A stretch of DNA of 57,821 bases from positions 1-57,821 of the forward strand of contig JADFHF010000022.1 of NCBI GenBank assembly GCA_022567305.1, in the 5' to 3' direction. Each line of letters begins with the position of its first letter. Within the stretch, counting starts at the first letter, position 1. Both the position numbers and the translations under genes were made by a program. The stretch is from Bacteroidota bacterium. Its GTDB lineage: Bacteria > Bacteroidota > Rhodothermia > Rhodothermales > UBA10348. Shown piece after piece: positions 39,743 to 57,821 of this stretch. A model generated the notes under the pieces. That model made no database searches. It had not been told where the DNA came from and was given only the letters and a program-made list of their open reading frames with translations.

Positions 39743-40570
39743 CTAGGCACTCCAAGCGACTTCACTCAACTGGGTGGGCTCATCAAAGCCCTTCAACAGG
39801 GTACCGCTCTGCTGATTGAAGTCAAACTTCTTTCCGAGGCACAGATCGCAGACCACTTGAGCAACAAGAATTTGTTCGGCGGCGGCATGCTCACAGATTC
39901 TCGCTGCAAGATTTACCGTAGAGCCGAAAAGATCCTGGTCTGCCATAATGGGTTCTCCAGCACTTAGACCAATTTTGACGCGTATCTCTCGATCGGGGTG
40001 ATCCTCGTTGTAGGCAACAAATTCCTGTTGAATACAAATGGCGCATCTGACGGCTTCGGACACGAGTGAAAAGGAGGCATGAAAACCATCTCCGGTAAAT
40101 TTTATTTCGCTTCCATTATTGCTCCGAAGCGTTTTTCTCACGATCGAGTTGTGATCAGATATCAGACGTACCGCTTCTTCGTCACCAAGCCTCACCGTCA
40201 TGTCTGTCGACCCCACGATGTCAGTAAACATGATGGCTCTGAAGGCCGAGTCAATCTTGGACCCATCATCCGGCTCGTCAGCCTCCTTCGGAGGATCTTC
40301 AATGCGGCCGAGAAAGGCACCCACGATCGCAGGGTCCACTTCGATCACTTCGTGCGGTACAAGGCCATGCGCGTTTCGATGCAGTTCCCTGACATGGTCT
40401 TCAGATGGTGCTTCCATCAGGCAAAACACAGTCCCTCTGGCTTGGTCGAACCAGTACGTCATGAGGTTGACACCGTACTGATCCTGAATCTCAAGGTCCT
40501 TGACGTGAGCCTCGGCTACATCCAGGGCGGTCACGCCCGGAATGTCGTGCCGATCCATGTAAATTGGCAT
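39743..40570 (-). CDS. DUF4242-adenylate cyclase fusion
   Basis: 275 aa. Residues 1-90 match DUF4242 (IYMDRHDIPGVTALDVAEAH, MEAPSEDHVRELHRNAHGL), a fold whose SCO4226 member binds nickel. Residues 108-275 are a class III cyclase. Metal Asp117 (MFTDIVGST) and Asp161 (FTGDGF), Lys157 and Asp213 for adenine choice, and Asn220/Arg224 (VNLAARI) are all present, so it should make cAMP. There is no membrane segment. The target might be the cNMP-fold protein at 48121, but that is only a guess. Confidence 0.9.
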   Translation of the reverse strand: MPIYMDRHDIPGVTALDVAEAHVKDLEIQDQYGVNLMTYWFDQARGTVFCLMEAPSEDHVRELHRNAHGLVPHEVIEVDPAIVGAFLGRIEDPPKEADEPDDGSKIDSAFRAIMFTDIVGSTDMTVRLGDEEAVRLISDHNSIVRKTLRSNNGSEIKFTGDGFHASFSLVSEAVRCAICIQQEFVAYNEDHPDREIRVKIGLSAGEPIMADQDLFGSTVNLAARICEHAAAEQILVAQVVCDLCLGKKFDFNQQSGTLLKGFDEPTQLSEVAWSA

Positions 40571-42709: not shown

Positions 42710-44590
42710 ATGCATTTCAACTCTCTCATCGTTCGGCATACGCGTCAGCTTCGATCCGTTAGTCAACTCTTGGCGGTCGCCATTACTGTTTTCGTCTCGG
42801 GTCTCTACCCGTTCTCCGCGTCCGAAGCCAGCAGCCAGATTATAAATCAAAGTTCACCCGCTTCGAACTTTCAGTTCATCTCCACTCATATCGATTCTCC
42901 AGCGCTCATCGCCCCGACCGATACCCTTGACAAATATGCAAGTGCTGCCCACGTAAAAGTTTTTTCAGAGGATCGTTTTCCTTCTGCGAATACCTGTGCA
43001 ACGTGCCATCCCGATCACTTCAGGGAATGGTCAGTCTCACAGCATGCATACGCGCAGATGAGTCCGGTTTTTAATGCATTTCACGGTGCGATCCTGGTGC
43101 TGACCAACGGTACGAATGGCGATTTCTGCATCCGTTGCCACAGTCCCGTTGGAATGAACCTTGGCGAGCCGGAATTCATGTCCAACATGGATCGATTCGC
43201 TACGTCGCGGGAGGGGATCACGTGCATCGTTTGCCATCGACTCAAGAATGCATATGGTAAAGTGAGTGGAAGATTGGCAATTGTGGAGGGCGATATTTTC
43301 GATCCGGTTTTCGGCCCCACGGGAAATGAGGAGGTCGCGCGGGTGATCGAGAGCGATTCGTTTCGGGTGAACACGATACGTGGCAAGGCCGGCCGAGCCA
43401 TGCATGCAGAAGCCCGAAAATTTGATCAGATCGACACTTCGGCGTCATGCGGAACGTGCCACGACGTGAATCTGGTGAACGGGTTTCGCCTGGAAGAGGC
43501 ATTCAGTGAATTCAAATCTACACCGGCGTCCGGCAGAGGCGTCTCTTGTCAGGATTGTCATATGGGAAAGGAGCAGGGAGTGGAATCGGGATACGCCGTT
43601 GCTCCAGCTGCCAAAGTAGGTGAGCGATATACCCGAGCCAGAAAGCGTACGGACCACATGTTCGCCGGACCTGATTATTCGATCATCCACCCCGGAATCT
43701 TCCCGCACAACGTGAAAGCCGCTGAAATGGCCAGCATTCGTGAATGGCTCACCTTTGATGTTGAGGCCGGGTGGGGCACCGACGATTTCGAAGACGCAGT
43801 GCCTTCAGATTACGCTTTCCCTGAGCGATGGAAATTCCCGGATGACCGCTACGACGCGAGAGATATTCTCACCGACAATCAGGTTCTTCTGAAAGAGATC
43901 GAAGAAAAGCGACTGGCCATCTTGCGCGCAGGGTATCTATTAGGAGAAATCGAAATCGAAGAAGCTAGTCGTACCGGCATCAAATTTCGCGTCGAAGTCA
44001 AGAGTGGAACGGACGGACATAACGTCCCCACAGGATTTGACGCCGAACGTCTCGTCTTTTTAGAAGTCACGGTTACGGATGCGGACGACCATGTTGTTTT
44101 TATGTCAGGCGATAGAGATCCGAACGGCGATATCAAGGACTCGCACTCGCTGTACGTTCACAATGGAGAACTTCCGCGGGACAAGTATCTATTCAGCCTC
44201 CAGTCGAGATTTCTTACCCGGATGGTGAGGGGCGGGGAACGTGAACAGGTTCTTGCCGTCAACTTCTCGCCGGATCCACTCCCCTTTCTTCGTCCTTCCA
44301 CCCGATCGACTGTTCTGCTGGGACGACCTCTAGGTGCTCGAAAACACCGCGTAACGCTTCCACCACTGGCGAGTCGGTGGGCGAAGTATGAAGTCGAGCG
44401 GAGCGCGCTTAGCGAGTCTCGAGGACCCTACAAAGCCACCGTTAAGCTGATTGCGCAAATGCTTCCTGTAAATCTGGTAGCCGAAATACAGGGAGTCGGC
44501 TTCGATTATTTCATGTCTTCGCGGCAAGTCGCAGACCGAATTGTACAAGGCGCCCAGGTACTTTGGGAGCGAGAATTTGAAATCAGATAG
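42710..44590 (+). CDS. Pentaheme cytochrome c (cytochrome c554-like)
   Basis: 626-aa periplasmic cytochrome with a signal peptide (LLAVAITVFVSGLYPFSASE). Five CxxCH motifs: residues 96 (CATCH), 140 (CIRCH), 172 (CIVCH), 247 (CGTCH) and 280 (CQDCH). The first half resembles the c554 multiheme family; residues after about 440 form a beta-rich domain with GHNVPTGFDAERLVFLEVTV. First gene of the operon; a clear ribosome site decides ATG 42710 over the upstream frame. One base separates it from the next gene. Confidence 0.93.
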   Translation: MHFNSLIVRHTRQLRSVSQLLAVAITVFVSGLYPFSASEASSQIINQSSPASNFQFISTHIDSPALIAPTDTLDKYASAAHVKVFSEDRFPSANTCATCHPDHFREWSVSQHAYAQMSPVFNAFHGAILVLTNGTNGDFCIRCHSPVGMNLGEPEFMSNMDRFATSREGITCIVCHRLKNAYGKVSGRLAIVEGDIFDPVFGPTGNEEVARVIESDSFRVNTIRGKAGRAMHAEARKFDQIDTSASCGTCHDVNLVNGFRLEEAFSEFKSTPASGRGVSCQDCHMGKEQGVESGYAVAPAAKVGERYTRARKRTDHMFAGPDYSIIHPGIFPHNVKAAEMASIREWLTFDVEAGWGTDDFEDAVPSDYAFPERWKFPDDRYDARDILTDNQVLLKEIEEKRLAILRAGYLLGEIEIEEASRTGIKFRVEVKSGTDGHNVPTGFDAERLVFLEVTVTDADDHVVFMSGDRDPNGDIKDSHSLYVHNGELPRDKYLFSLQSRFLTRMVRGGEREQVLAVNFSPDPLPFLRPSTRSTVLLGRPLGARKHRVTLPPLASRWAKYEVERSALSESRGPYKATVKLIAQMLPVNLVAEIQGVGFDYFMSSRQVADRIVQGAQVLWEREFEIR

Positions 44591-44591
44591 C

Positions 44592-46058
44592 ATGAAAACA
44601 CGCTTGAACATCGAAACTTCGTTTTTTCGGTTTGGTAGGGTTCTGCCCGTCTGCCTGCTCTTTGTCGCGTTGTTTTTCGCGAGTCCAGAGGTCGCGTTTT
44701 CCCAAGAACAGGAAGAACAACAGGAGGAAGAAAGCCACGAGACAAGTCGGTTCTCAGATGAGCCCATTCCGCTGGTAACTGTTCCGCCGAGACCCCGTCC
44801 CATCTTTGAACTGGGGGAACCGTTTCTGGGAACAGGGACACTGGGCCAGGGCATCAAACTACCGACGGGCGCGGTCTGGCAGCCCGCCTTTATGGCTTTC
44901 GGAAGCATTCGTACGGCAGCACAGGCAATCAATAATGACGTCACGGATACACAGATTTCGGAAGGCGTCGCCCGGTTCGATCTATTCGGAAATCTCTACC
45001 TCACTCAGACCGAACGCATCGTCATCGGATTCAGGCCGCTCGATCAAGATGGACGATTCACGCGGTACACGTTGAGCGCCGATCCGGCCGACAGTACCGA
45101 TTTTCAAGACGAACTGAACTTCAAGGTCCGGACACTTTTTTTTGAGGGGGATATCGGAGAAATCTTTCCAAAACTGGATTGGACAGACAAACATGGGTTC
45201 GACATCGGCTTTTCGGTAGGAAGGCAACCGCTCAGTTTTCAGGACGGTCTTCTCATGAATGAATCTGCCATCGATGCTGTAGGCTTAACTCGGGCAAACC
45301 TAAAGTGGTTTGGAGCGGTTAATATGCGAATCACAGCCCTGTTTGGATGGGGTGAGATCGATCGACCGATGGGTGGTTTTAACAGAGCAGATTCAAATGC
45401 TAAATTATTTGGACTATTCACGGAAACGGATACACCGACACAAACCCTCGAACTGGATCTGATTTACGTTTCCGGGGACAGCCTGAGTGGTGACGGCCTC
45501 TACGGAGGATTCAGTTCGATCCGTCGTTTTGGAGGGATGAACAACACGTTTCGCGTGGTGGCATCATTCCCCGTAGGTGACGAGGGATTATCCAACTCCC
45601 AGGGTGTGCTTTTCCATAATCAACTTGGATGGACGCCCCATCATTCAATTAACTATGTATACATTAACACCTTTCTGGGCATTGATGAGTTTCGTTCTGC
45701 AGCGCGTGGTCCTTCTACGGGAGGACCGCTTGGCCAGACCGGAATCCTATTCGCTGCGGTCGGCCTGGGACGCTACGGTGCAGCACTCGGAAATTTTGCG
45801 GACAATTCAGTGGGTGGTGCGATTGGTTACCAGATGTTTTTCGCGCATACCCGTAGACAATTGGTCCTCGAAGCGGGCGCCCGGTATGTCTACGATAGAG
45901 ATGTAATGGCGCCCGTAAACGCCACCGCCGGAGGAGCCCGGTATCAGATTGCATTCGGCCGACGCGGAGTTATCGTACTAGACGGTTTCGGCAGTTATAA
46001 TTTTGAAGTCAGCAAGGCCGTCTTTGGCGGCCGTTTGGAACTCCTGATCAAACTGTGA
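44592..46058 (+). CDS. Outer-membrane beta-barrel protein
   Basis: 488 aa with a signal peptide (VLPVCLLFVALFFASPEVAF), an acidic Glu/Gln segment, a Pro-rich stretch, then alternating amphipathic strands (VARFDLFGNLYLTQTERIVI, RITALFGWGEIDRPM) to a C-terminal GGRLELLIKL. It looks like a porin-type barrel of about 16 or more strands. Position between multiheme cytochromes recalls MtrB in porin-cytochrome conduits, though it shows no MtrB sequence signature. It has no CxxCH of its own. Confidence 0.82.
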   Translation: MKTRLNIETSFFRFGRVLPVCLLFVALFFASPEVAFSQEQEEQQEEESHETSRFSDEPIPLVTVPPRPRPIFELGEPFLGTGTLGQGIKLPTGAVWQPAFMAFGSIRTAAQAINNDVTDTQISEGVARFDLFGNLYLTQTERIVIGFRPLDQDGRFTRYTLSADPADSTDFQDELNFKVRTLFFEGDIGEIFPKLDWTDKHGFDIGFSVGRQPLSFQDGLLMNESAIDAVGLTRANLKWFGAVNMRITALFGWGEIDRPMGGFNRADSNAKLFGLFTETDTPTQTLELDLIYVSGDSLSGDGLYGGFSSIRRFGGMNNTFRVVASFPVGDEGLSNSQGVLFHNQLGWTPHHSINYVYINTFLGIDEFRSAARGPSTGGPLGQTGILFAAVGLGRYGAALGNFADNSVGGAIGYQMFFAHTRRQLVLEAGARYVYDRDVMAPVNATAGGARYQIAFGRRGVIVLDGFGSYNFEVSKAVFGGRLELLIKL

Positions 46059-48118
46059 TGAGTCAAAAGTCGTTCTACCGTCGTAACCAGTCTTTTCTGG
46101 TTCTGGTGATGGGCGTGAGTCTTTGCCTGGGAACGGCGTGGGTATTGGCACAGGAAGCTCCATCGAGATCCTTTCCAGATTCTCCGTATTTGAGGATCGA
46201 TCCTGAAAAAATTCGTGGTGCTGAAGTTTGCGGTGAGTGCCATGCCGAGGAGGCTGAGCTCTGGATGGAGACCAAGCATCAGACTCAATTTGCTACACTA
46301 CACCAGTCGGAGAAAGCCCAGAATATTCTGGACAACATGGGTTTTCGACTCGCCAAGCGTGAAAGTCTGTGCCTTCGATGCCACTACACGGCCACCGTTC
46401 GTCGCGACCAGGCAAGAGCCGTGACGGGTGTTTCGTGCGAATCGTGCCATGGGGCCGGTCGGGACTATATCGATATCCACAATGATTACGGAGGAGCTAC
46501 ACACGACACGGAGACCGAAGCCCACCGCCTACAGCGCATTCAAGGCAGTATCGAAGGGGGCATGCTCCGCCCGAGTGGGGATATCTATGCCGTGGCTGCG
46601 AACTGCTTTGAGTGCCATACCGTCCCCGATGAACGACTGATCAACGAGGGTGGCCATCCCAGCGGGAGTAAAATCGAACTGGTAGCGTGGTCCGATTCCA
46701 TTCGACATAATTTTTTGGCCGCTCAGTGGAGCAGTGACCGCTCCAATCGAGTCCCTACAATGGCTCGAAACCGGCTTCTCTACGTCGTAGGTCAGATCCT
46801 CGATTATGAATACAGCCTCCGCGGTCTTGCTAATGCTACCAAGAGAAGCCCGTACTCGAAGGCCATGGAGCGGAGAACCAAAGTCGCGTATCGAGACCTG
46901 AAGGACATTTACCGTGTCGTTCCTCTCTCTGAACTGAATGAGATTCTGAATTTAGGCCGCTCAATAACTATTAGTCCGAACAACGAGGCCGAACTCGTAT
47001 CTGTGGCTGACCGGATCGCACCAATCGTTGAAAGACTATCACAAAATCACGATTGGGAGTCCCTGACTGAACTTGATCCGCTCGTAAGCGGACCATCTTC
47101 AACATCGACGGCTGGAATCGTCGACGAATCTGACGATTCGGGCTCAGATTCGGACTCGGATTCAGAAACCCCTGCCCCTGAACCAGGTGGTGATGACGAG
47201 GACGACACAAGGGTCCCTGATCAGACTGAATCGGATCCCGTCTCCGGTGGCGCGGCCATCGAAGGTCGAATACTCTCACGGCCGGCCTGGTTTCAAACCG
47301 AGCAATACCAAACCACGGTCCCGGGTTGTTCCTGCCATACAAACGCCGAAGAGTGGCTACTTGACGACACGCACTCCCAGTCTTTCGACTTGATGAGTTC
47401 TCCGCGCGCCATTCAGATCGCCCAGGTATATGGAATCAATCCAGCAGAACGGCATCTGGGAAATCGAATTTGTATGAGTTGTCATGGAACGGTCGTTTCT
47501 GGAGACGAACTGGAGGAAGTCTTCGATCCGGTGACATGCGAGAGCTGCCATGGGCCCAGTTCAGGGTACCTCGACCCACACGAAAGAGGGAGTGGTGCTG
47601 GTTTTTCTCTCGGGCAGCGACGACTCAAGAACGCAGAAGATCGAGCCGTTAATTGCAGTCGCTGTCACTATATCACCGACGAGCGGCTACTCGCTGCAGG
47701 GCACCCGACCGAAGAAAATTTCGATTTGAGTGAGAAGAGCCAAACAATCAAGCACTGGCCGGATACAAAAAATGTAAAACGCGATTCTCCCTACCCCGAG
47801 TTATCTGCATCCTCGCTTACGTCCGCCATGGCTTCGGTCAAGACGTCGCGCCCCGTCCCGTTTGTAAACGTTGTCCAGGTACAACCTGCACCGACCACCC
47901 CGTCGGTTACACAGTCGACCCAAACAACGGCGCCCCGACCCACCAGTGGTGATTTTCAACGTCCTCAGACCCTTCGCACATCTCGCCGCTCCAGTTCGGG
48001 TTCCCTGCAGCTGCCACCCCTTCCGGAAGTCGACGATTCAACTTCGACAGAGGAGTTGTTGTTGATTGTAAAACGGCAACTTGAACGAATTTATAAAGCC
48101 CTTGGTAGAGGAAATTGA
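46058..48118 (+). CDS. Duplicated multiheme cytochrome c (seven CxxCH and one CxCH)
   Basis: 686 aa with a signal peptide (FLVLVMGVSLCLGTAWVLAQ). Two homologous heme modules are joined by an acidic Ser/Asp linker (about 345-395). Module 1 has CxxCH at 58, 105, 127 and 183; module 2 has CxxCH at 472, 494 and 533. At the place of the first heme in module 2 the sequence is C424-S-C-H, one residue short. A Pro/Thr-rich region and a C-terminal helix end the protein. The ATG overlaps the barrel gene's stop by one base. Confidence 0.92.
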   Translation: MSQKSFYRRNQSFLVLVMGVSLCLGTAWVLAQEAPSRSFPDSPYLRIDPEKIRGAEVCGECHAEEAELWMETKHQTQFATLHQSEKAQNILDNMGFRLAKRESLCLRCHYTATVRRDQARAVTGVSCESCHGAGRDYIDIHNDYGGATHDTETEAHRLQRIQGSIEGGMLRPSGDIYAVAANCFECHTVPDERLINEGGHPSGSKIELVAWSDSIRHNFLAAQWSSDRSNRVPTMARNRLLYVVGQILDYEYSLRGLANATKRSPYSKAMERRTKVAYRDLKDIYRVVPLSELNEILNLGRSITISPNNEAELVSVADRIAPIVERLSQNHDWESLTELDPLVSGPSSTSTAGIVDESDDSGSDSDSDSETPAPEPGGDDEDDTRVPDQTESDPVSGGAAIEGRILSRPAWFQTEQYQTTVPGCSCHTNAEEWLLDDTHSQSFDLMSSPRAIQIAQVYGINPAERHLGNRICMSCHGTVVSGDELEEVFDPVTCESCHGPSSGYLDPHERGSGAGFSLGQRRLKNAEDRAVNCSRCHYITDERLLAAGHPTEENFDLSEKSQTIKHWPDTKNVKRDSPYPELSASSLTSAMASVKTSRPVPFVNVVQVQPAPTTPSVTQSTQTTAPRPTSGDFQRPQTLRTSRRSSSGSLQLPPLPEVDDSTSTEELLLIVKRQLERIYKALGRGN

Positions 48119-48120
48119 AC

Positions 48121-49785
48121 ATGGAATCAGGTTCGACAACAGATCATTCTGTGACGATGATCAAGCGGAAGAAGTTGTTTGAAGACCGTTGGTCTTCGTT
48201 TGGCTCTCATGCGGGATTGACTGGGCTGTCGGAAATGCTCTCTCCTGCTGAGCTGCGGGAGATCGATATTTTTAAAGAGTACGATGACTCCTTTCTTCAA
48301 ACCATTTCTCCCGATGTTTCTATCGCCCAGTGGAAAGCGGACGTCGTTCTGTTCGAAGAAGGAAGCTTTTTGGATCTAGCGTTTTACGTGCTCGATGGAG
48401 AAGTCGGTGTAGCTATCAAGATGCACGAAGAATCTTTAAACGCGATCCCGACATTTGACGCGCAGCGTACCGTTTACGCGTCGGATCCACGCTCATTTCA
48501 AGTCCCTCAGGAGGGCGTTGCAGCGACCATACTCCAGACACGAATGACTGCGCGCGAAACGAGTAAAGATCCGCAGATCACGTTTCTTGCATCCATGGAT
48601 TTTAATCTCCCCCTCGGCAGCACGATTGTGTTGAAAAAGGGAGATCTTTTTGGAGAAATCGGAGCTCTAAACGGCTGGCCTCAGTCTGCCACCGCCCATA
48701 CTACTTCGGCCTGCAAACTGGTCCAGATTCGAGTGCCTGCCCTTCGGGAAATGAAGAAAGCGTCAGGAGCTTTTAAGGAAAAAATCGACCAAATCTATCG
48801 CGAACGGACCCTTTTTGAACAACTGAAGACCTCCCCCGTTTTTCGTGGTTCTGGAGATGCCTTTCTTGAGTCTCTGACGGAAAAGGTCGAGCTACTCTCT
48901 TTCTCGCCTGGGGACGTCATCACGAAACAAGGCGACCGAGTAGATGCCCTATACATGGTCCGATCGGGATTCTTAAAGATCTTCGAGCGCCTTGGAGAAG
49001 CAGATGTTGCTGTGAATTACCTGAGCAAGGGAATGACGATCGGAGAAGTCGAGCTTCTTCTTCCCGATATCGACACCTGGCTCAGTTCGACAACCTCAGT
49101 GGGCTATTCAGAGCTCGTTAGAATCGAGCGCGACACGTTTCACGACATAATTCGTGAGCATCCATTGGTCGAGAAAAGACTTTGGGATTCTGCCGTCGCC
49201 CAGATGAAAGAGTCGGGATTTACACGAAAAAATCTCGACAAATCTGAACTGATCGAATTTTCTTTACAGAAGGGACTCGTTCAGGGGAACAGCATATTGG
49301 TCATCGATCTGGACGTCTGCACGCGGTGCGACGACTGCGTGCGCGGTTGCGCTGACACCCACGGCGGCCGACCCCGATTTGTTCGCGAAGGCGATACGTT
49401 CGACCATTTCCTGATCGCTCGTTCCTGTTACCACTGCGACGATCCCGTCTGTCTGGTCGGATGTCCAACAGGTGCGATTGGACGGGCGGGCGTCGGCGAG
49501 GTCGTGGCGATCGATGACGGACTATGCATTGGGTGCGGTACTTGTGCCACAAAGTGTCCTTACGATGCGATTGTGATGCATGATACGGGAGACACATGGG
49601 GTGATGACGCTTTACCGGAAAGGCTCCGCGGTCGGCCACAAAAAGTCGCCAGCAAGTGCGATCTATGTTATACGTCCGACGACGGCCCCGCGTGCGTGAA
49701 CAATTGTCCCCACTCGTGCGCGTTTCGAATCGGAAGTATTCAGGATTTTCAGTCCCTCCTCTCAACCGAGAAAGCCGAAGCGTGA
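48121..49785 (+). CDS. Double cNMP-fold protein fused to a four-[4Fe-4S] ferredoxin domain
   Basis: 554 aa, no signal peptide, so cytoplasmic. Two cyclic-nucleotide-type domains (about 50-225 and 235-370) each have the beta-roll; phosphate cassettes read FGEIGALNGWPQSATAHT and IGEVELLLPDIDTW, both lacking the usual Arg, so cAMP binding is doubtful. From residue 400 there is an HybA/DmsB-like iron-sulfur domain with four clusters: CTRCDDCVRGC, CYHCDDPVCLVGC, CIGCGTCATKC and CDLCY followed by CVNNC. It likely passes electrons to the b-type membrane protein encoded next, with which it overlaps by 4 nt. Confidence 0.93.
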   Translation: MESGSTTDHSVTMIKRKKLFEDRWSSFGSHAGLTGLSEMLSPAELREIDIFKEYDDSFLQTISPDVSIAQWKADVVLFEEGSFLDLAFYVLDGEVGVAIKMHEESLNAIPTFDAQRTVYASDPRSFQVPQEGVAATILQTRMTARETSKDPQITFLASMDFNLPLGSTIVLKKGDLFGEIGALNGWPQSATAHTTSACKLVQIRVPALREMKKASGAFKEKIDQIYRERTLFEQLKTSPVFRGSGDAFLESLTEKVELLSFSPGDVITKQGDRVDALYMVRSGFLKIFERLGEADVAVNYLSKGMTIGEVELLLPDIDTWLSSTTSVGYSELVRIERDTFHDIIREHPLVEKRLWDSAVAQMKESGFTRKNLDKSELIEFSLQKGLVQGNSILVIDLDVCTRCDDCVRGCADTHGGRPRFVREGDTFDHFLIARSCYHCDDPVCLVGCPTGAIGRAGVGEVVAIDDGLCIGCGTCATKCPYDAIVMHDTGDTWGDDALPERLRGRPQKVASKCDLCYTSDDGPACVNNCPHSCAFRIGSIQDFQSLLSTEKAEA

Positions 49786-50645
49786 AGAAAACGGCCATAT
49801 ACCAGAGGAAACGCCCCGATTCACCGAGGTGGCTGAACAAGTGGATCCAATCGCTGCCCTGGTTCTTCGGCTTTGTACTGGCTGTGTTCGGTTGCCTGGT
49901 CATCTTTGTCGTGAATGCAACGACCGGTCGGATTCATCCGGGGAACGCGTGGGGACTGGGGTATGGTATCGGAGCGACCGTGGCCCTCGTGGCGGTCCTT
50001 CTCTATACCGTGAGAAGACGTACGATGAAGCTTCGACCTCCGGGTCGAGCATGGACCTATCTGCAGGTGCACGTCTATGGCGGTGGAATTTTTCTGCTCC
50101 TCATGTTGATGCACACGGGATTTCGTATTCCTTCTGGCATACACACGTGGTGGCTCTGGCTGATCAGTCTCTGGGTTGTAGGAAGCGGCGTGCTGGGTAT
50201 TGTGATTCAGAAGTGGATACCCACTGTGCTCAGTGCCGGGTTGGCTGTTGAGGTTCATTATGATCGCGTCCCCGAGTTGATCGAGCACATACGTACACGT
50301 TCCGAAAAAATTGTCGCGTCCGCGGACGAACGCCTGAGAGAGTTCTATGAAAGCAGAGTGGCGCCGTCACTCGTCGCTCCAGAGCCGCGTCTTATGTATT
50401 TCATAGATATTACAGGAGGCATACACGCTCGTATCAAGCCGTTCGAATACTTAAGAGCACTTCTACCGGCTAGTGATCAGGAGTCTCTGGATGAGTTAAA
50501 GGAATTGTTTAATACGAAACTAGAAATCGATGCGCATTATACGCTTCAGCGCGTACTTCGTACCTGGTTAATCCTTCATGTTCCGATTTCTATGGTACTC
50601 GTCGTGCTGCTCTTTATTCACATCTTTTCCGTCCTCTATTATTGA
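49782..50645 (+). CDS. Di-heme b-type cytochrome membrane protein
   Basis: 287 aa with about five membrane segments. His97 and His111 lie in the third (HVYGGGIFLLLMLMH), and His266 and His280 in the last (HVPISMVLVVLLFIH). Each pair is 14 residues apart, the classic spacing for two stacked b hemes. Between them is a soluble loop of about 110 residues (150-260). It would carry electrons across the inner membrane between the Fe-S protein and the decaheme cytochrome. The GTG at 49782 overlaps the previous stop (GTGA). Confidence 0.88.
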   Translation: MKKTAIYQRKRPDSPRWLNKWIQSLPWFFGFVLAVFGCLVIFVVNATTGRIHPGNAWGLGYGIGATVALVAVLLYTVRRRTMKLRPPGRAWTYLQVHVYGGGIFLLLMLMHTGFRIPSGIHTWWLWLISLWVVGSGVLGIVIQKWIPTVLSAGLAVEVHYDRVPELIEHIRTRSEKIVASADERLREFYESRVAPSLVAPEPRLMYFIDITGGIHARIKPFEYLRALLPASDQESLDELKELFNTKLEIDAHYTLQRVLRTWLILHVPISMVLVVLLFIHIFSVLYY

Positions 50646-52213
50646 TGGCAAAGGGAAAACAAAAGCGAAAAGGTTACTTCAGTGACCTCCGATTACCGGT
50701 GGTCAAAGAATACATTTATCCGTCGGCGAGATCATCGTTGTTGATGATCGGTGGGATCGGAGCATTTCTGGTCGCGGTCGTCTTTGTTTTCAATCTCACG
50801 GTGCAGTCGGGATCGCTGGTTTCGAACGGACCCCTTTCGTCAAATCATGCCTCGTTCGGAGGCGAGTGCGCGTCCTGTCATACGGCGTTTGACAGAGTTT
50901 CCGATGCCAAATGCTCTGTGTGTCATGAAAAATTTGGAGATGAGTTGGGTGCCTTCACGTATTCGTCCCACTACCTTTACCGATCCGGAGATTTCACAAG
51001 GTTAGTGCCATCTCCCGATGAGGTCGCTTGTTTTAGTTGTCATCCGGAACACCAGGGTACTTCATCTTCGATCACTCAGGTACCGGACGCGACGTGCACA
51101 ACGTGTCACGAGTATGGATCATTCAATTCCAGGCATCCTGAGTTTGCCTTTGCCTCAGAGAAAATTGAGGATCCGGCCAATCTAAAATTTTCTCATACAC
51201 AACACGTGACGGAAGTCATCAATCAAGAAGGACTCGTCGACATCGAACAGTCCTGTTTGTATTGCCACCACGCCAGAGACGAGGGAAAATCGTTTAAGCC
51301 GATCAGTTTCGAAACCGCGTGTTCGGCATGCCACATCAGCACGTCGGTTAGCACTGCATGGTTACCCATTGCGTCATCATCGCGAAGAGCCGGGGTTCAG
51401 ACGATTGGATCCATTCAAACCCGGCAAGCCCCCGGCACGAGATGGGCCGATTATATGACGTCAGCCGAGTTCCAGCAGCGGCGGGATGAAGTCCGAAAAA
51501 GGCCCGTCTATCACAGAGATCCGTGGATACTGGAAAACCTGAAACGCCTTCAGGATGAGTTGTACCGGGACCGCAACGACCTGGCGGAGCTATTGCAGGC
51601 ATCGGCCGGTGAGGACCCCCGCGGGGCTCGCGCCTTGTACACGGAGGCGTTGGCCACATTGGAAGACTACGCTGAGGAACTCAGATCGGCACCCGGACGC
51701 GACGTGCAGAAAGCCCTCAACGAACTCGATGAATTGATCCGAGTGGTAAAGGCTCGGATACGTGATCCGTTCAGCCCGATGGATGAAACCAAATTTCTGT
51801 TGGGACCCGACGACATCAATCCTGATCTGGATGCCGCAGATATCGCCGAGCTTGAGTCCGTCGTAGACGGGTTGACCGAGACCTGTCAAACGTGTCATAC
51901 CGTTCAGCAGTCAGCCATTCTGCGAGTGCAGAAAGACCAGAGGGTGCTGATCCGATCAGAATTCGATCATCGAGTGCACATTATTCAACGTGGGTGCCTG
52001 GAGTGCCATTCTTCCATTCCCATTCGGGAGCATGTCGCACGAGACAGCGTTGCCACGGCCGCGATTGATCACGCCGGGATCCAAAATTTGCCAACCATCG
52101 AAACGTGTCAGTCGTGCCATGCACCAGCGAAGGCAGTCAATACCTGTGTTTCATGTCATCTCTTCCATCCGGACAAGTCTCAACACACTAATTTGTTGAG
52201 ATATTTCGAATAA
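50645..52213 (+). CDS. Membrane-anchored decaheme cytochrome c
   Basis: 522 aa. An N-terminal membrane anchor (LLMIGGIGAFLVAVVFVFNL) holds the protein on the periplasmic face. Ten CxxCH motifs are at residues 75, 90, 129, 151, 204, 226, 414, 451, 488 and 501. Hemes 6 and 7 are separated by about 185 residues, mostly charged helix (DPWILENLKRLQDELYRDRN, EEL and ELDELIRVV segments). The first six resemble cytochrome c7/c3-type packing. The ATG overlaps the stop of the b-type gene by one base. Confidence 0.93.
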   Translation: MAKGKQKRKGYFSDLRLPVVKEYIYPSARSSLLMIGGIGAFLVAVVFVFNLTVQSGSLVSNGPLSSNHASFGGECASCHTAFDRVSDAKCSVCHEKFGDELGAFTYSSHYLYRSGDFTRLVPSPDEVACFSCHPEHQGTSSSITQVPDATCTTCHEYGSFNSRHPEFAFASEKIEDPANLKFSHTQHVTEVINQEGLVDIEQSCLYCHHARDEGKSFKPISFETACSACHISTSVSTAWLPIASSSRRAGVQTIGSIQTRQAPGTRWADYMTSAEFQQRRDEVRKRPVYHRDPWILENLKRLQDELYRDRNDLAELLQASAGEDPRGARALYTEALATLEDYAEELRSAPGRDVQKALNELDELIRVVKARIRDPFSPMDETKFLLGPDDINPDLDAADIAELESVVDGLTETCQTCHTVQQSAILRVQKDQRVLIRSEFDHRVHIIQRGCLECHSSIPIREHVARDSVATAAIDHAGIQNLPTIETCQSCHAPAKAVNTCVSCHLFHPDKSQHTNLLRYFE

Positions 52214-52224
52214 AAATTGCCACG

Positions 52225-53304
52225 ATGCCTGCAAGACTCTTTTGTAAAACGGGCGCATTGGATGGGTCCAGCTTTGAGTTGGATCGCGAGGCTACGATTG
52301 GCAGATCGAGCGAGTGCGACATCCAGCTATCCTCAGAGGGCGTATCGAGCAGACACGCACGCATCCATTTCGACGATGGGAAGGGCAGCTTTTTCCTCGA
52401 AGACTTGAACAGCCGCAATGGGACGCATGTCGATGGCGTCGAGGTGAATACATCGATTCGTCTCGACCATCTGAACGTGATCACGTTCGCAGGTCAGCAC
52501 GATTTCATATTTCAGGTTTTGGCTGGGCCGGTATCTAGTCCGAGAAAATCCGCCACCGCGGAGCGTCCAAAAACGATTGTTGAGCAAAAAGCGCCTTCCC
52601 TCCCTGCTTCTCTCAGGAAAGAAGAGCCGGCCGACGGAGCTGACGAAGTCCCTGATATAGAGAAGACGCGAATGGGCGATCGAGCCTTGCCGCTTCCCGC
52701 TCTCAACGAGGACGAAGCTGACGATACTCCTGGTGAATTGCAAGAGACCCGAATGGGCGATCGAGCCTTGCCGCTCCCCGCTCTCAACGAGGACGAAGCT
52801 GACGATACTACGGGCGAATTGCAAGAGACCCGAATGGGTGATCGAGCTCTGCCACTCCCCAATCTCAGCGAGGACGAAGCTACGGGCGAATTGCAAGAGA
52901 CGCGAATAATGGACGATCGAGCCTTGCCGCTTCCCGCTCTCAACGAGGACGAAGCTGACCTTAATACGGACGAGGATGCGTTCGCGCAGACTAGCCCAAC
53001 TTTATCGAAGCCATATGTGCTGACGGTGCGCGGTCTCACCGACGATCATCTGGAGTACACACTCTCGGAAGGAGAGAATGTCGTTGGCAGATCGGAAGAG
53101 TGCGAAGTGCAGATTGAGGATCGCTCACTGTCGCGAAAACATGCCATCATTGAAATCTCGAACGATACCGCTACGATTCGCGATCTCGGAAGTAAGAACG
53201 GAACGTATGTGGATGACGAAGCCGTAACAAAACCCACGACCGTGAACCCGGGAAACCTATTGAAATTCGGTTATCGGGTCCATGCAACGCTCAGTCGAAA
53301 ATAG
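52225..53304 (+). CDS. Two-FHA-domain protein with Thr-containing repeat linker
   Basis: 359 aa, no signal peptide. FHA-1 (about 20-98) has IGRSSECDIQL, SSRHARIHF and LNSRNGTHVDG; FHA-2 (about 285-358) has VGRSEECEVQI, LSRKHAIIEI and LGSKNGTYVDD. Both keep the phospho-threonine-binding Arg, Ser and Asn. The linker has four repeats of about 27 residues around (E)TRMGDRALPLPAL. It could act as a phospho-regulated scaffold for the Ser/Thr kinase encoded two genes later. Confidence 0.93.
   Translation: MPARLFCKTGALDGSSFELDREATIGRSSECDIQLSSEGVSSRHARIHFDDGKGSFFLEDLNSRNGTHVDGVEVNTSIRLDHLNVITFAGQHDFIFQVLAGPVSSPRKSATAERPKTIVEQKAPSLPASLRKEEPADGADEVPDIEKTRMGDRALPLPALNEDEADDTPGELQETRMGDRALPLPALNEDEADDTTGELQETRMGDRALPLPNLSEDEATGELQETRIMDDRALPLPALNEDEADLNTDEDAFAQTSPTLSKPYVLTVRGLTDDHLEYTLSEGENVVGRSEECEVQIEDRSLSRKHAIIEISNDTATIRDLGSKNGTYVDDEAVTKPTTVNPGNLLKFGYRVHATLSRK
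52660..52962 (+). repeat. Four tandem repeats of about 81 nt in the FHA gene
   Basis: Units code a block like TRMGDRALPLPALNEDEAD plus an acidic spacer and GELQ. Thr residues at 148, 175, 202 and 226 start each core. The third unit is 9 nt shorter and the fourth reads TRIMDDRALPLP. DNA identity between units is very high, so this part is recent or kept by recombination. Confidence 0.9.
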
Positions 53305-53310
53305 AAGAAA

Positions 53311-55698
53311 ATGCAGAATTCGATACTACCAGACGGAATGCACGAATTGAAAAAGTCGGTCGTGTTGCCGGACGTATTGGACATGCTCATCGTTGGTGGA
53401 GGCCCAGCAGGCACTGCTGCTGCATTTCGAGCCAAAGAACTCGGGTTATCAGCCCTGGTGGTGGACTTTGACGACATTTTGAAGCGTATACGCGATTACG
53501 CCAAAAATAAGCCGATTTTACCCTCATTTGGCGGCGGCGACTCCATGCAATTCCCGAAGGGCGGCGACTTGATTCGGCGGCTACACTTCGGTCCTATTGA
53601 CAAGGACGAAATGTGCGTCCAATGGAAAAAGTTTTACTACGAGGAAAGCATCCCGGTACAGATCGGTGTTGAGCTGACCGGGCTTGAGAAAGGAAGTGAC
53701 GGAACCTGGACCGTGAAAACCTGGAACCACCGGCTTAAACAGGAGCAGATCATTTCGGCCCAGCACGTCGTGGTCAGTATCGGACGCGGGGTTCCTCGAC
53801 GGTTCGACATCCCGGGTAATTTGGATGGCATCGGATATCGGCTCGACGATGCAGAAAATTATCTAGGTTCACCGGCCTGCGTCATCGGTGGTGGCACGTC
53901 GGCCGCCGAAGCAGTTATTGCCATCTCCAATGCAAAAATCGCGGCTCAAGACGAAAGTTCGGTGTACTGGTCTTATCGAGGTGACAAGATGCCGCGGGTA
54001 TCAAAGGCGCTCTCCGAGGTATTTTTTGACGCCTATGTAGGAAATGGAAACATCCGTTATCACCCGGGAAGCGAACCCGTTGCCATAGTCACTGCGCCGG
54101 ACAAGAATGAATACCTGTCGGTTCGGGTTGACAGAAGATCCCTCGATGGTCGTCCACACGAGACATTGCATTTGGAGTTCAAGAAGACATTCTGTATTGC
54201 GTGCATTGGCGAAGATCTGCCCGAAGCCCTCCTCCAATCCATGGGGATATCATTATTCACAGGTGGACCGAAAGCCAAGAAACGGGTCACCGTTTCACCA
54301 TTGCTCGAAAGCCAGCAGGAGAATGTCTATCTGATCGGGGATATCCTGAGTCAGGTTTATCTCGAAGCGGACGATTTCTCAGCAGATCCTGCCACATTTC
54401 GAGAGATCAAGCACCGCGGAATTGTGAAGTCCGCCCTCCGAGATGGCGTATTTGTCGCTGAGGTGATCCGTCAAAAATTGGACGGAAAAACGAAGATCTA
54501 CGTCGAGCTTGAATTTGAAGTAGGCGAAATGCCCGAGGTGACCGATGCGCCAGCGCAAGTGGCTACGGTCGTGGAATCTGGAGGACCTCCGAAGGAGAGC
54601 ATACCTGAAGAGCGAAAAGAAGACGAACAGGCGGCTGTTCTCGTGAAAATGACTCCCGCCGGAATTGATGAGGATGAATTCAAACTCTACTACGGAAAGA
54701 CCCTGACGATCGGGAAAAAGGACACAGACCTGGTCTTCATAAACGACGACGGCCTCGAAGACCATCACGCATCGATTGAGTCGCGAAGCGACAGGATTTA
54801 TCTGCGGGATGAAGGCAGCACGACCGGGACTTTTCTTCAGCTTGTTCCAGGTTCATCGATGCAACTGAGCGACGGAGACCTGATTCGGCTCGGACAGCAG
54901 TTCGTGGTTTTCTCCATTTCTGATGAAAAAGTGTTTTTTACACACTATGACGCGCACGGGAAAACGGTCTCGAAACACGAGTTGGCGGCGGACTCCACGG
55001 TTGTACTCGGCCGCCAGGCTCCGGACATTACGCTGGATCCAGACGATCTCGTACTCTCTAGAAGACATCTCTCGTTGACCGTCCGCGATTCGGGGTTATT
55101 CGCTAAGGACCTGAAAAGCCTGAATCATTCGTATCTGAGGGTCACGGGCGAGCGAGAGCTGGGCCAGGACGACGTCTTCCGAGTTGGTCAGCAGCTATTC
55201 CGACTCAGCCTTTCGGCCGAGCAACCACGTAAGACGACGACGTTTATCCTCAAACCTCCGGTTCTGGATTCGCTCCCTGATGCCATTCCTGCAGCCGTCC
55301 CTGATGCTATTCCAGAAACCATTCCGGACTCGATTCCGGACTCGATTGCGGAACCCGAAACTTCTGTCGAGAAACCCGATGTGGCCGCTGCTGCTGCCAG
55401 CGTTACATTTAAAGCCCTCGGCCAACTCGAGGAAATCGGTACCTCCCAGACCATTTGTGATCTGGCGGAGAGCAAGGGAATAACGCTGAATGCCGAATGT
55501 CATGTCGGGATATGCGGTAGCGATCCGATTCGGATCATTTCAGGGGCCGAATTTCTAAATTCATTAGGAGATGAAGAGGCCGACACCCTGGACGATATAT
55601 GTGACCTGGAAGCCGGCAACGATTCTGGAAAATGTCGTTTAGCATGCATGACGAGGGTATCGGGGCCAGTTGTTATCGAAATTGTTGAACAGGATTAA
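53311..55698 (+). CDS. Flavoprotein-FHA-FHA-[2Fe-2S] fusion protein
   Basis: 795 aa. Residues 1-390 are an FAD/NAD(P) oxidoreductase of the thioredoxin-reductase/YpdA type: MLIVGGGPAGTAAAFRAKEL for FAD, CVIGGGTSAAEAVIAI for NAD(P) and VYLIGDILSQ near the end. No CxxC redox pair is seen. Two FHA domains follow (about 455-535 and 555-635); FHA-2 has LGRQAPDITL and LSRRHLSLTV. After an Ile-Pro-Asp-rich linker comes a ferredoxin-like domain with AECHVGIC and KCRLAC as probable cluster ligands. It would take electrons from NAD(P)H to an Fe-S centre under phospho-control. Confidence 0.9.
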   Translation: MQNSILPDGMHELKKSVVLPDVLDMLIVGGGPAGTAAAFRAKELGLSALVVDFDDILKRIRDYAKNKPILPSFGGGDSMQFPKGGDLIRRLHFGPIDKDEMCVQWKKFYYEESIPVQIGVELTGLEKGSDGTWTVKTWNHRLKQEQIISAQHVVVSIGRGVPRRFDIPGNLDGIGYRLDDAENYLGSPACVIGGGTSAAEAVIAISNAKIAAQDESSVYWSYRGDKMPRVSKALSEVFFDAYVGNGNIRYHPGSEPVAIVTAPDKNEYLSVRVDRRSLDGRPHETLHLEFKKTFCIACIGEDLPEALLQSMGISLFTGGPKAKKRVTVSPLLESQQENVYLIGDILSQVYLEADDFSADPATFREIKHRGIVKSALRDGVFVAEVIRQKLDGKTKIYVELEFEVGEMPEVTDAPAQVATVVESGGPPKESIPEERKEDEQAAVLVKMTPAGIDEDEFKLYYGKTLTIGKKDTDLVFINDDGLEDHHASIESRSDRIYLRDEGSTTGTFLQLVPGSSMQLSDGDLIRLGQQFVVFSISDEKVFFTHYDAHGKTVSKHELAADSTVVLGRQAPDITLDPDDLVLSRRHLSLTVRDSGLFAKDLKSLNHSYLRVTGERELGQDDVFRVGQQLFRLSLSAEQPRKTTTFILKPPVLDSLPDAIPAAVPDAIPETIPDSIPDSIAEPETSVEKPDVAAAAASVTFKALGQLEEIGTSQTICDLAESKGITLNAECHVGICGSDPIRIISGAEFLNSLGDEEADTLDDICDLEAGNDSGKCRLACMTRVSGPVVIEIVEQD

Positions 55699-55737
55699 AG
55701 CTGCCGCTCCGGGAGACAATACTAAACCGCCCAGACC

Positions 55738-57495
55738 ATGGATTTGGAGATTGGTCAAGAGATAGATGGATATAAAATCCGAGGCATCTTGGGCCGCGGA
55801 GGGATGGGCGTCGTCTACGAAGCCGAGGATGTAGCCCTGTCGAGAGCCGTGGCGCTTAAGGCAATCAATCCGGAATTGACTCAGGATGAGCAATTCATTC
55901 GACGATTTCAGACTGAAGCCCGGGTTCTCGCGAAGGTCAATAGCCCCTACATCGTTGGGGTGCACGCCCTGAGGAAGACCGATCTGGGGCTCTTCATTGT
56001 TATGGAATTCGTGGAGGGCGGTACACTTGCAGATCGCCTGGTCGAAGGACTCATACCGCTACCGGAGGCGCTGAAGATCATCCGGCAGATGTTGCTCGCG
56101 TTCGAGCACGCCCACAAGGCGGGCGTCATTCACCGGGACATCAAGCCGGCCAACATCATGCTTACGCCTGGTGGCGTCGTAAAAGTCACCGATTTCGGCC
56201 TAGCCAAGCAGAGTCAGCCCGACATGATGAGTACCGTGACCCAGGGAGTCATGGGTACGCTGTATTACATGTCTCCGGAACAGGTTCGAGGGATGGGAGA
56301 TGTCGATCATCGGAGCGATCTCTATTCGCTCGGAATGACCATCTATGAAATGCTGGCCGGTCGGCTACCCTTTGAAAAAGGCGACGGAGAGTTCGACATC
56401 ATGCGAAGCATTGTGGACAAGGAGTTTCCCAGTCCGAAAGACTACAATCCTGACTGTCCCGCCGCGCTCTCGGATATTGTGATGCGGGTGATCGCCAAAA
56501 AGGCCGATGATCGGTATCAGAGTGCTGACGAGATGCTCGCCGCGATTGACGCGTACGATTCCGTACCTGAAGAAAAAATCGTTCCCAAGCCGGCAAAACA
56601 GACGGGATCGCCCGACGCGCAAGAGCCGCCAGACATCCCGGACGCCGATTCACCCGTTCGGACATCCGTCTTTAGTCGTCGCAGGTTGATAGGAAGTGCG
56701 GCAGCTCTCGCAGCGATTATTGGAATTGTGTTTTTACCTGACTTCCTATCGACAAGTCCGGAAAACGGAATTTCTGCTCTCGGAGCACTCTCCCTGTCCA
56801 CTATTCCCGATGAGGCTGTCGTTTTTCTGAACGATCGAAGCCTGGGCGAGACGCCTCTGAACGGAGTCGAAGTGCCAGAGAATGACGGAAATATTACCGT
56901 TCGCATTCAAAAAGCCGGATTTTTCCCAATCGACACCACTCTGAGTCTGTCACTGGCACACCATTTGGTTCTCACAGCCACCGAAGGCGTGGACTCGTCG
57001 GAAGACGCAGGGATTCAGGACAAAGAAGGGATTCAGGATACAGGGGTGGCGCCTGTCACGCGTCAAAGCGGAACAGTTCGCCTGAATATTGAACCGAACG
57101 GAGTCGCATTCCTGGATGAAAGACCAACTAGTACGGGAACCGTACTAAATGTGCAAACTGGTACGCACTCCGTACTATTCAGACATCCAGTGTATGATGA
57201 AATCAAAAGACAGATCGAAGTCGTGGCTGACCGCCAGACGGACCTGACCTGTTTTTTCGAAGGCCGGATAAATATTCGGGCGGCACCAGTTTGGGGCACT
57301 GTCTGGGTCAATGGTGAAGCGACCGAATTCACCACCGACAGACAGATTCACCTCGGACCCGGTTCATATGACATTACCGTCAAGAAATTCGGTTACAATA
57401 CGGAATTGGTGGAAGGTCCAACGGGACCGATCCAAATAAACTCGTCTTGCAGCGAACAAGAGCAGTTCGAGTTCGTGTTCAAATTAACTCAATAG
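55738..57495 (+). CDS. Membrane Ser/Thr protein kinase with PEGA domains
   Basis: 585 aa. Kinase domain (about 10-275): GRGGMGVVYE, VALKAINPEL, HRDIKPANIML, VTDFGLAKQ and YYMSPEQVRGM. A Pro-rich juxtamembrane part is followed by one membrane segment (LIGSAAALAAIIGIVFLP) and periplasmic PEGA-type modules (LSTIPDEAVVFLNDRSLGET, RAAPVWGTVWVNGE). It is a transmembrane receptor kinase; its FHA clients are presumably the two genes upstream. 39 nt separate it from the fusion gene. Confidence 0.94.
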   Translation: MDLEIGQEIDGYKIRGILGRGGMGVVYEAEDVALSRAVALKAINPELTQDEQFIRRFQTEARVLAKVNSPYIVGVHALRKTDLGLFIVMEFVEGGTLADRLVEGLIPLPEALKIIRQMLLAFEHAHKAGVIHRDIKPANIMLTPGGVVKVTDFGLAKQSQPDMMSTVTQGVMGTLYYMSPEQVRGMGDVDHRSDLYSLGMTIYEMLAGRLPFEKGDGEFDIMRSIVDKEFPSPKDYNPDCPAALSDIVMRVIAKKADDRYQSADEMLAAIDAYDSVPEEKIVPKPAKQTGSPDAQEPPDIPDADSPVRTSVFSRRRLIGSAAALAAIIGIVFLPDFLSTSPENGISALGALSLSTIPDEAVVFLNDRSLGETPLNGVEVPENDGNITVRIQKAGFFPIDTTLSLSLAHHLVLTATEGVDSSEDAGIQDKEGIQDTGVAPVTRQSGTVRLNIEPNGVAFLDERPTSTGTVLNVQTGTHSVLFRHPVYDEIKRQIEVVADRQTDLTCFFEGRINIRAAPVWGTVWVNGEATEFTTDRQIHLGPGSYDITVKKFGYNTELVEGPTGPIQINSSCSEQEQFEFVFKLTQ

Positions 57496-57510
57496 TATGA
57501 GGTGGCGGTC

Positions 57511-57821
57511 ATGACCAGGAATCCTTTTCGCTTTGAGACATTTGCGCCTCAGAGGATGCTGTACCTTTCGTTGTCTCTGTGCCTCGTTCTGCCTGTAACC
57601 GGCGCATCGGCTCAGGATGCCGCGCTTACGGATGCAATCAATGCCTATCAGTCCGCAGATTTCGATGGGGCCATCGAGATCTTCACGTCTATCGCTGAGA
57701 ATACGAGAGCATCGCGAGATCATCGTCTGACCAGTTATCAGTATCTGGGTCGAGCATACGTCGCGAAACACATGGAGGATGAGGCACGCTCCGCAATCCA
57801 GTCCCTTATGGATCTGGAGCC
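57511..57821 (+). CDS. Exported TPR-like protein, cut by the window edge
   Basis: 103 residues visible without a stop. Signal peptide (LSLSLCLVLPVTGASAQ), then helical TPR-like sequence (AINAYQSADFDGAIEIF, YQYLGRAYVAKHMEDEARSA). A ribosome site GAGGTGG precedes the ATG, 15 nt after the kinase stop. Probably a periplasmic partner of the kinase's PEGA part or of the cytochromes. The C-terminus lies outside the window. Confidence 0.8.
   Translation, partial: MTRNPFRFETFAPQRMLYLSLSLCLVLPVTGASAQDAALTDAINAYQSADFDGAIEIFTSIAENTRASRDHRLTSYQYLGRAYVAKHMEDEARSAIQSLMDLE

Follow-up and report, generated by a model that had tools for sequence, protein, structure and literature searches.

Do the genes for multiheme cytochromes and those for FHA proteins and a Ser/Thr kinase, which follow one another at the end of contig JADFHF010000022.1 from a Bacteroidota bacterium of the Rhodothermales (assembly GCA_022567305.1), encode a single system, and if so what might that system do? 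The window, i.e. the whole stretch of 57,821 nucleotides (nt) that was analyzed, is an entire contig of a 3.76-Mb genome, and its end (57821) is the contig end. An earlier note, made from the sequence alone, had described ten co-directional genes there as an operon joining an electron conduit to kinase/FHA signaling. Comparison with other genomes indicates that the first eight of these genes (A to H) are one real conserved system. In the reading that we develop below, and that we regard as roughly an even call, the operon would encode a trans-envelope conduit for electron export, fed by reduced pyridine nucleotide (NAD(P)H) and controlled by FHA domains and a kinase. The ten open reading frames (ORFs), named A to J, are on the + strand and span 42710 to 57821 (FAD, flavin adenine dinucleotide; cNMP, cyclic nucleoside monophosphate).

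42710..44590, + strand, A: predicted exported pentaheme c-type cytochrome, with a c554-like part and a C-terminal domain (PF13435, five CxxCH)
44595..46058, + strand, B: predicted outer-membrane β-barrel (barrel model of an A-B fusion; a TTG start is possible at 44541)
46058..48118, + strand, C: octaheme cytochrome, each half being tetraheme and c554-like (seven CxxCH and one CSCH; a GTG start is possible at 46055)
48121..49785, + strand, D: two degenerate cNMP-fold domains (∼48313-48720 and ∼48898-49161) and four [4Fe-4S] sites (49318-49719), from Pfam
49782..50645, + strand, E: putative membrane cytochrome b, predicted to bind two b-hemes (four invariant His)
50645..52213, + strand, F: decaheme c7-like cytochrome with an N-terminal anchor (ten CxxCH, PDB matches)
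52225..53304, + strand, G: FHA domain, linker with Thr motifs, FHA domain (PF00498, E 6e-40, two stretches)
52513..53010, + strand, linker of G: repeated KTRMGDRALPLPAL-type motifs, candidate phospho-Thr sites
53311..55698, + strand, H: FAD/NAD(P) oxidoreductase (53380-54348) with two FHA domains (54706-54894 and ∼54988-55194) and a [2Fe-2S]-like domain (∼55399-55698), from Pfam
55738..57495, + strand, I: Ser/Thr protein kinase with a PEGA domain (PF00069, E 5e-51; PF08308, E 7e-13)
57511..57821, + strand, J: start of an exported TPR-like protein, ended by the contig edge (weak NCBIfam TPR matches)

The ten genes are as tightly packed as the earlier note had stated, with spacings from A to J of 4, −1, 2, −4, −1, 11, 6, 39, and ∼15 nt, i.e. 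within −4 to 39 nt. Its count of heme sites on three cytochromes also holds: there are five CxxCH in A, seven CxxCH plus one CxCH in C, and ten CxxCH in F (22 + 1 in total), and residue shuffles give almost none (mean CxxCH per protein of 0.004, 0.017, and 0.037 for A, C, and F, respectively). Pfam matches above cut-offs (two cNMP domains and 4Fe-4S in D, two FHA in G, Pyr_redox and two FHA in H, Pkinase and PEGA in I) recover the four-cluster Fe-S protein with two cNMP domains, the two-FHA protein, the PEGA kinase, and the FHA-flavoprotein that had been proposed, although the C-terminal [2Fe-2S]-like domain of the last had been missed. The proposed TPR protein J stands less firmly. It has NCBIfam TPR matches, but these are weak and the ORF is truncated; its relatives, of ∼360 amino acids, lie downstream of the kinase in three loci (L023, L024, and L035). 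Neither B nor E has a family match in Pfam.

The gene order of the window is repeated in eight other genomes. When 84,980 species genomes were scanned with an alignment of D, 32 relatives were found, all in metagenome-assembled genomes (MAGs) or uncultured isolates, labeled Rhodothermia, Ignavibacteria/Chlorobi, KSB1, Zixibacteria, Acidobacteria/Thermoanaerobaculia, Gemmatimonadetes, Myxococcota/Deltaproteobacteria, and Caldithrix. The core C-D-E-F(-G-H) is present in MAGs of about nine phyla. A Shewanella match at 23% (L057) was treated as unrelated. Counting only loci whose contig leaves room, E lies after D in 26/26, F after D in 23/23, C before D in 26/27, and G after D in 15/19. The earlier note had named rare co-occurrence of the genes as a finding that would speak against it; what we found instead is linkage conserved in about nine phyla. 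Within the order of the window, A and D occur in the same 9 of 114 genomes, which random placement would produce about 1 time in 6.5e12, a figure that takes the genomes as independent when shared descent makes them less so. H is present in seven of the nine system-bearing genomes of this order, and in the other two the D match reaches the contig end; a scan of genome contigs with the single H sequence gave no match. Genes have been shuffled without loss of linkage, G having moved in an Acidobacteria MAG (L045) and F standing before D in another locus (L039). G, H, and a kinase make up an operon of their own on a separate contig of a KSB1 genome (L068), and in two other genomes a relative of G is located upstream in divergent orientation. 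Each of the nine system-bearing genomes tested is positive for COX1 (heme-copper oxidase), and the conduit therefore appears to belong to oxygen-respiring lineages and not simply to anaerobic respiration.

Several neighbors are joined in natural fusions. A and B form a single ORF in the above Acidobacteria MAG (L045:4241-7660), in which the signal peptide of B is gone, and D and E form a single ORF in four KSB1 MAGs and one Caldithrix MAG (L046-L050). A cultured relative of the system is found on the conjugative plasmid pMSHV of Sphingobium herbicidovorans (L058, NZ_CP020539.1, 805859-825070). There, a fusion of an FAD/NAD(P) domain, two cNMP domains, and 4Fe-4S is followed by an E relative and then by a decaheme F carrying an FHA domain. 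In strain MH the fusion gene occupies 814847-817324 of NZ_CP020539.1 and the FHA-decaheme gene 812149-813948. The inner genes adjoin an outer set, which we call type 2, consisting of an HbpS-like protein, a barrel-like protein, a decaheme cytochrome with LVIVD repeats (about 1,225 residues), and a short C with one tetraheme half; the A-B-C set of the window is type 1. As assessed by profile comparison, the D part of the Sphingobium fusion matches with E 1.5e-44 and the FAD part with E 3e-9, and in alignments with the window the ten heme sites of F correspond throughout, as do the four His of E. The fused FAD-D protein is found on eleven further Sphingobium plasmids at ≥94% identity. These fusions therefore make covalent in Sphingobium the links of FAD to D and of FHA to F that the operon suggests.

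The Sphingobium cluster has the same FAD + cNMP + 4Fe-4S, cytochrome b, FHA-decaheme, and c554-type cytochrome parts as the window, and compared with the type 2 outer set its decaheme LVIVD cytochrome (to k0), barrel, and HbpS protein are 51, 40, and 35% identical, respectively. It differs in that the FAD module is joined to D and FHA to F, the [2Fe-2S] tail is absent, no kinase is seen nearby, and the inner part is only ∼28% identical. Its cNMP sites retain the Arg (GGPRTATV), unlike those of the window type. The cluster has been annotated piecemeal and is undescribed, and the annotated start of its FAD-cNMP-FeS gene is too short and cuts the FAD motif. S. herbicidovorans is an aerobic herbicide degrader, and pMSHV is a conjugative megaplasmid.

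In the inner core, at least 16 Cys of D are invariant across 34-35 relatives. D contains two PF00027 domains, and AlphaFold2 (AF2) and Foldseek give a tandem cNMP fold with PKA-R/PKG as best matches (Z about 19), the matches including a trypanosome PKA-R listed with guanosine or inosine. The Fe-S part of the AF2 model of D-E is of low confidence, and the PDB match list of this model is filled by cNMP domains. In the GWPQSxTA sequence of the first cNMP cassette, Gln occupies the position of the phosphate-binding Arg (34/34 relatives), and no Arg is conserved at the cassette of the second domain. We therefore rejected cyclic AMP (cAMP) sensing by D as unlikely for this type, because the Arg is lost in both domains; they may instead serve in docking or bind another ligand. 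E has four His (H97, H111, H266, and H280; spacing 14 and 14) that are invariant in 19/19 relatives and sit on two helices in the pattern of diheme cytochromes b, which agrees with the two-heme b-type membrane protein originally proposed. Relatives of E match DUF4405, cytochrome b561, and ferric reductase weakly, and a search of PDB sequences with E alone gave no match. F has c7/GSU1996-type PDB matches, and its ten CxxCH are invariant in 19 sequences, Sphingobium included, as are further His that would be enough for bis-His ligation at most heme sites.

In the outer half, matches to the cytochrome c554/c' family are given by A and C; the five CxxCH and further His of A are conserved in 12-13 of 13 relatives, and the heme-site residues of C are kept in 15/15. 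When modeled by AF2 as part of the natural A-B fusion, B displays ∼18 antiparallel strands with moderate confidence, the model being of low confidence over A. Foldseek places B closest to AlgE/OccK porins (E 5e-11), in keeping with the outer-membrane barrel of the earlier note, and B relatives terminate in GGRxELxxKF. The fifth heme site of C (47327-47338, residue 424) keeps its position in all loci with differing spacing: Rhodothermia and one Ignavibacteria locus have CX1CH, the remaining type 1 loci CX2CH, Sphingobium CX4CH, and the type 2 loci CX6CH. Such variation (1, 2, 4, or 6) at one heme site is unusual. In many phyla the type 2 set replaces the type 1 outer part and D-E-F is constant. 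On the D tree the outer type requires about three changes, at least one of them forced, and the outer half therefore appears to have been swapped around a fixed D-E-F core. The HbpS-like heme-binding lipoprotein heads the type 2 set in KSB1, Zixibacteria, Chlorobi, and Sphingobium (L024:629-2311 and relatives).

Turning to the cytoplasmic proteins, H keeps both dinucleotide motifs. Models for YpdA and thioredoxin reductase were rejected on score (TIGR04018, 56 bits vs 340; TRX_reduct, 21 vs 343). The C-terminal domain of H has weak ferredoxin-type NCBIfam matches, and its tail has a C-x4-C-x2-D ... C ... LAC pattern conserved in 19/20 relatives ([2Fe-2S]-like motif at 55498-55524, residues 730-738), with an extra Cys (764) conserved in 16/17. 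This is not the CX4CX2C...C set of plant-type [2Fe-2S] ferredoxins, Asp standing in place of the third Cys in 19/20, and the tail would provide an unusual ligand set if a cluster is bound. In the second FHA domains of G and H, the binding-loop residues Arg, Ser, His, and Asn are kept in 22-23 of 23 sequences. The linker of G, otherwise unconserved, contains in 14/18 relatives one to four copies of a [KR]-T-x-hydrophobic-x3-8-P-x-hydrophobic motif. Kinases, with or without PEGA, adjoin the system in several phyla, and in some loci a PP2C phosphatase lies beside the kinase. FHA-mediated phospho-control is the best reading that these sequences suggest for G, H, I, and PP2C. In KSB1 loci, a conserved exported protein with a GCH-type motif directly follows the kinase (cluster k2; L047:16006-17250 and L050:15560-16831). 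In the window itself, the region 2-5 kb before the operon contains a class III adenylate/guanylate cyclase (39743-40570, − strand) and another kinase, which carries TPR repeats (37456-39723, + strand).

Electron export could then proceed as follows. H would oxidize cytosolic NAD(P)H (NADPH is a guess), and the electrons would go from its FAD to its [2Fe-2S]-like tail and on to D with its four [4Fe-4S] clusters. D would be docked to the diheme cytochrome b E from the cytoplasmic side, with H probably docking on D. E would move electrons over the inner membrane to the anchored decaheme F, from which they may reach the periplasmic octaheme C, the pentaheme A in barrel B, and an acceptor at or beyond the cell surface. 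The cofactors of each hop can be seen in the sequence, and the hops we infer from gene order and fusions. The earlier note had drawn the order NAD(P)H to Fe-S to b-heme to c-heme; its parts line up and natural fusions exist at four of the proposed contacts, on which basis the electron path is well supported at the level of sequence. We infer its direction, the final acceptor, the phospho-gating, and the choice between NADPH and NADH. Outward flow goes with the membrane potential, and inward flow to NADP would go against it. Export is therefore likelier than import, because electrons leaving the cytosol via E would follow the potential. Reductant overflow, metal or humic reduction, and surface redox chemistry in oxygen gradients are possible roles.

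For control, G and H would read phospho-threonine via their FHA domains, and kinase I probably phosphorylates the Thr motifs in the linker of G and so, together with PP2C in relatives, sets the assembly of H, G, and D-E-F. We tentatively extend this, as a possibility about which we are doubtful, to a new class of conduits that take electrons directly from NAD(P)H and are turned on or off by Ser/Thr phosphorylation. I would mark the Thr motifs of G, the FHA domains of G and H would dock the reductase on the Fe-S/b/c-heme core, and PP2C would reverse this; the regulatory input would be interchangeable, phospho-Thr here and a cyclic nucleotide in the Sphingobium branch.

Several observations weigh against export fed by H under phospho-control. 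Four genomes with a D-E fusion (three KSB1, one Caldithrix) show no H, some of the assemblies being incomplete, and H is therefore not the sole possible donor. The first FHA domain has degenerated in many relatives, in G as well as in H; that of H in the window lacks key residues, and the Sphingobium FHA is degenerate as judged by eye. The window operon contains no PP2C gene. The excess of the G-linker motif (31 observed in 18 relatives vs 0.86 expected from shuffles) is flattered, the motif having been defined after inspection. Finally, E belongs to no recognized fold family, so that it could bind quinol. In a different account, E and F are quinol-linked like CbcL, or electrons from outside, e.g. 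from Fe(II), run inward to quinone or NADP, with D and H as a side branch. The diheme pattern of E, with its weak DUF4405/b561 similarity, and the c7-like F would resemble the CbcL pairing, and a 10-heme "Forkhead-associated protein" listed without discussion in 27 iron-oxidizing Gallionellaceae genomes may be a relative of the Sphingobium FHA-F (PMC10734462). We judge this account unlikely, since the invariant Cys of D and the FAD-D fusion indicate that electrons enter the core from a soluble pyridine nucleotide, an inward route to NADP would have to work against the membrane potential, and no tested relative has been shown to oxidize iron.

The outer proteins could alternatively form a terminal enzyme: at the outer membrane, A and C would reduce a small molecule such as nitric oxide, nitrite, or peroxide, and B would serve them as channel or scaffold. 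The nitrogen-oxide chemistry of the cytochrome c554/c' family and the odd spacing at the fifth heme site of C would suit such a role, which we nevertheless find quite improbable: exchange of the outer part for an unrelated LVIVD set around a retained D-E-F fits an interchangeable exit better, and the A-B fusion resembles a cytochrome-porin. That electron flow through the cytochromes is instead the input of a redox sensor, with FHA/kinase signaling as output and a minor flux, we consider very improbable. Kinase, FHA, and PP2C genes do go with the system and type 2 loci have HbpS-like proteins, but ∼23 c-hemes, four Fe-S clusters, and a complete outer-membrane exit far exceed the needs of sensing, and H is missing from the four genomes mentioned above. 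Almost no weight is left for unrelated cytochrome, FHA, and kinase genes that are merely adjacent. Kinase I does not neighbor the system in all relatives, and kinases are frequent in these genomes. Only I and J could be incidental neighbors; for A to H, chance is contradicted by linkage and fusions kept across about nine phyla.

Extracellular electron transfer as known takes its electrons from quinols, and its control is regarded as mainly transcriptional. If our reading of NAD(P)H-fed export is true, a widespread conduit fed by pyridine nucleotide and controlled post-translationally would be a different way to dump or move electrons. Its genes are present in genomes with an oxidase, from about nine phyla that metagenomes have almost exclusively made known. 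The plasmid-borne Sphingobium relatives make it testable in culturable strains. The system also offers two biochemical oddities, the Asp-for-Cys [2Fe-2S]-like site of H and the heme site of C with variable CXnCH spacing.

How does the system compare with those already known? No published description with its full content was found in the open-access literature, as the earlier note had supposed, although that content is not a fixed unit, the outer part being exchanged in many phyla and H missing from four genomes. In the same literature, no paper joined multiheme cytochromes with FHA domains, a cyclic nucleotide-binding domain, LVIVD, or a threonine kinase and extracellular electron transfer, which is weak evidence of absence; the papers examined on iron oxidizers contained no description of this system. 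With MtrCAB, MtoAB, and PioAB it shares a barrel and multiheme c-cytochromes that carry electrons through the outer membrane, and differs in its donor side, which here is FAD/Fe-S/cytochrome b and not CymA. Membership of the MtrCAB type was rejected on barrel family and decaheme model: the MtrB_PioB barrel (PF11854) has no match in the genome of the window, B itself has no Pfam match, and with the DmsE/MtrA decaheme model (TIGR03508) A and C score 24 and 25 bits vs a cut-off of 192, F not being among the matches listed. The PCC3 of Gallionellaceae has a periplasmic cytochrome with 21-27 hemes (PMC10734462), and membership was rejected since the largest cytochrome here has ten. The system nonetheless has the broad feature of porin-cytochrome conduits, as the conserved A-B-C order, the A-B fusion, and the barrel model tie a barrel to cytochromes; the cytochrome-porin formed by A-B in L045 is similar in layout to Cyc2 but belongs to other families. 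In CbcL, a diheme cytochrome b is paired with a c7-like multiheme cytochrome. Geobacter CbcL-type systems, to whose two partners E and F may correspond, are the nearest known inner-membrane systems in kind, CbcL being a quinol:cytochrome c oxidoreductase (PMC9012536). The arrangement here differs in using two genes, ten hemes, an extra cytoplasmic 4×[4Fe-4S] subunit, and a pyridine nucleotide flavoprotein. On the signaling side, G has FhaB as its best NCBIfam match and resembles the regulators OdhI, GarA, and FhaB as an FHA protein beside a Ser/Thr kinase acting on redox metabolism, but it has two FHA domains, repeated Thr motifs, and a tie to an electron conduit. Taken together, these comparisons lead us to rate the system as a conduit of the porin-cytochrome kind with a new inner-membrane and signaling half.

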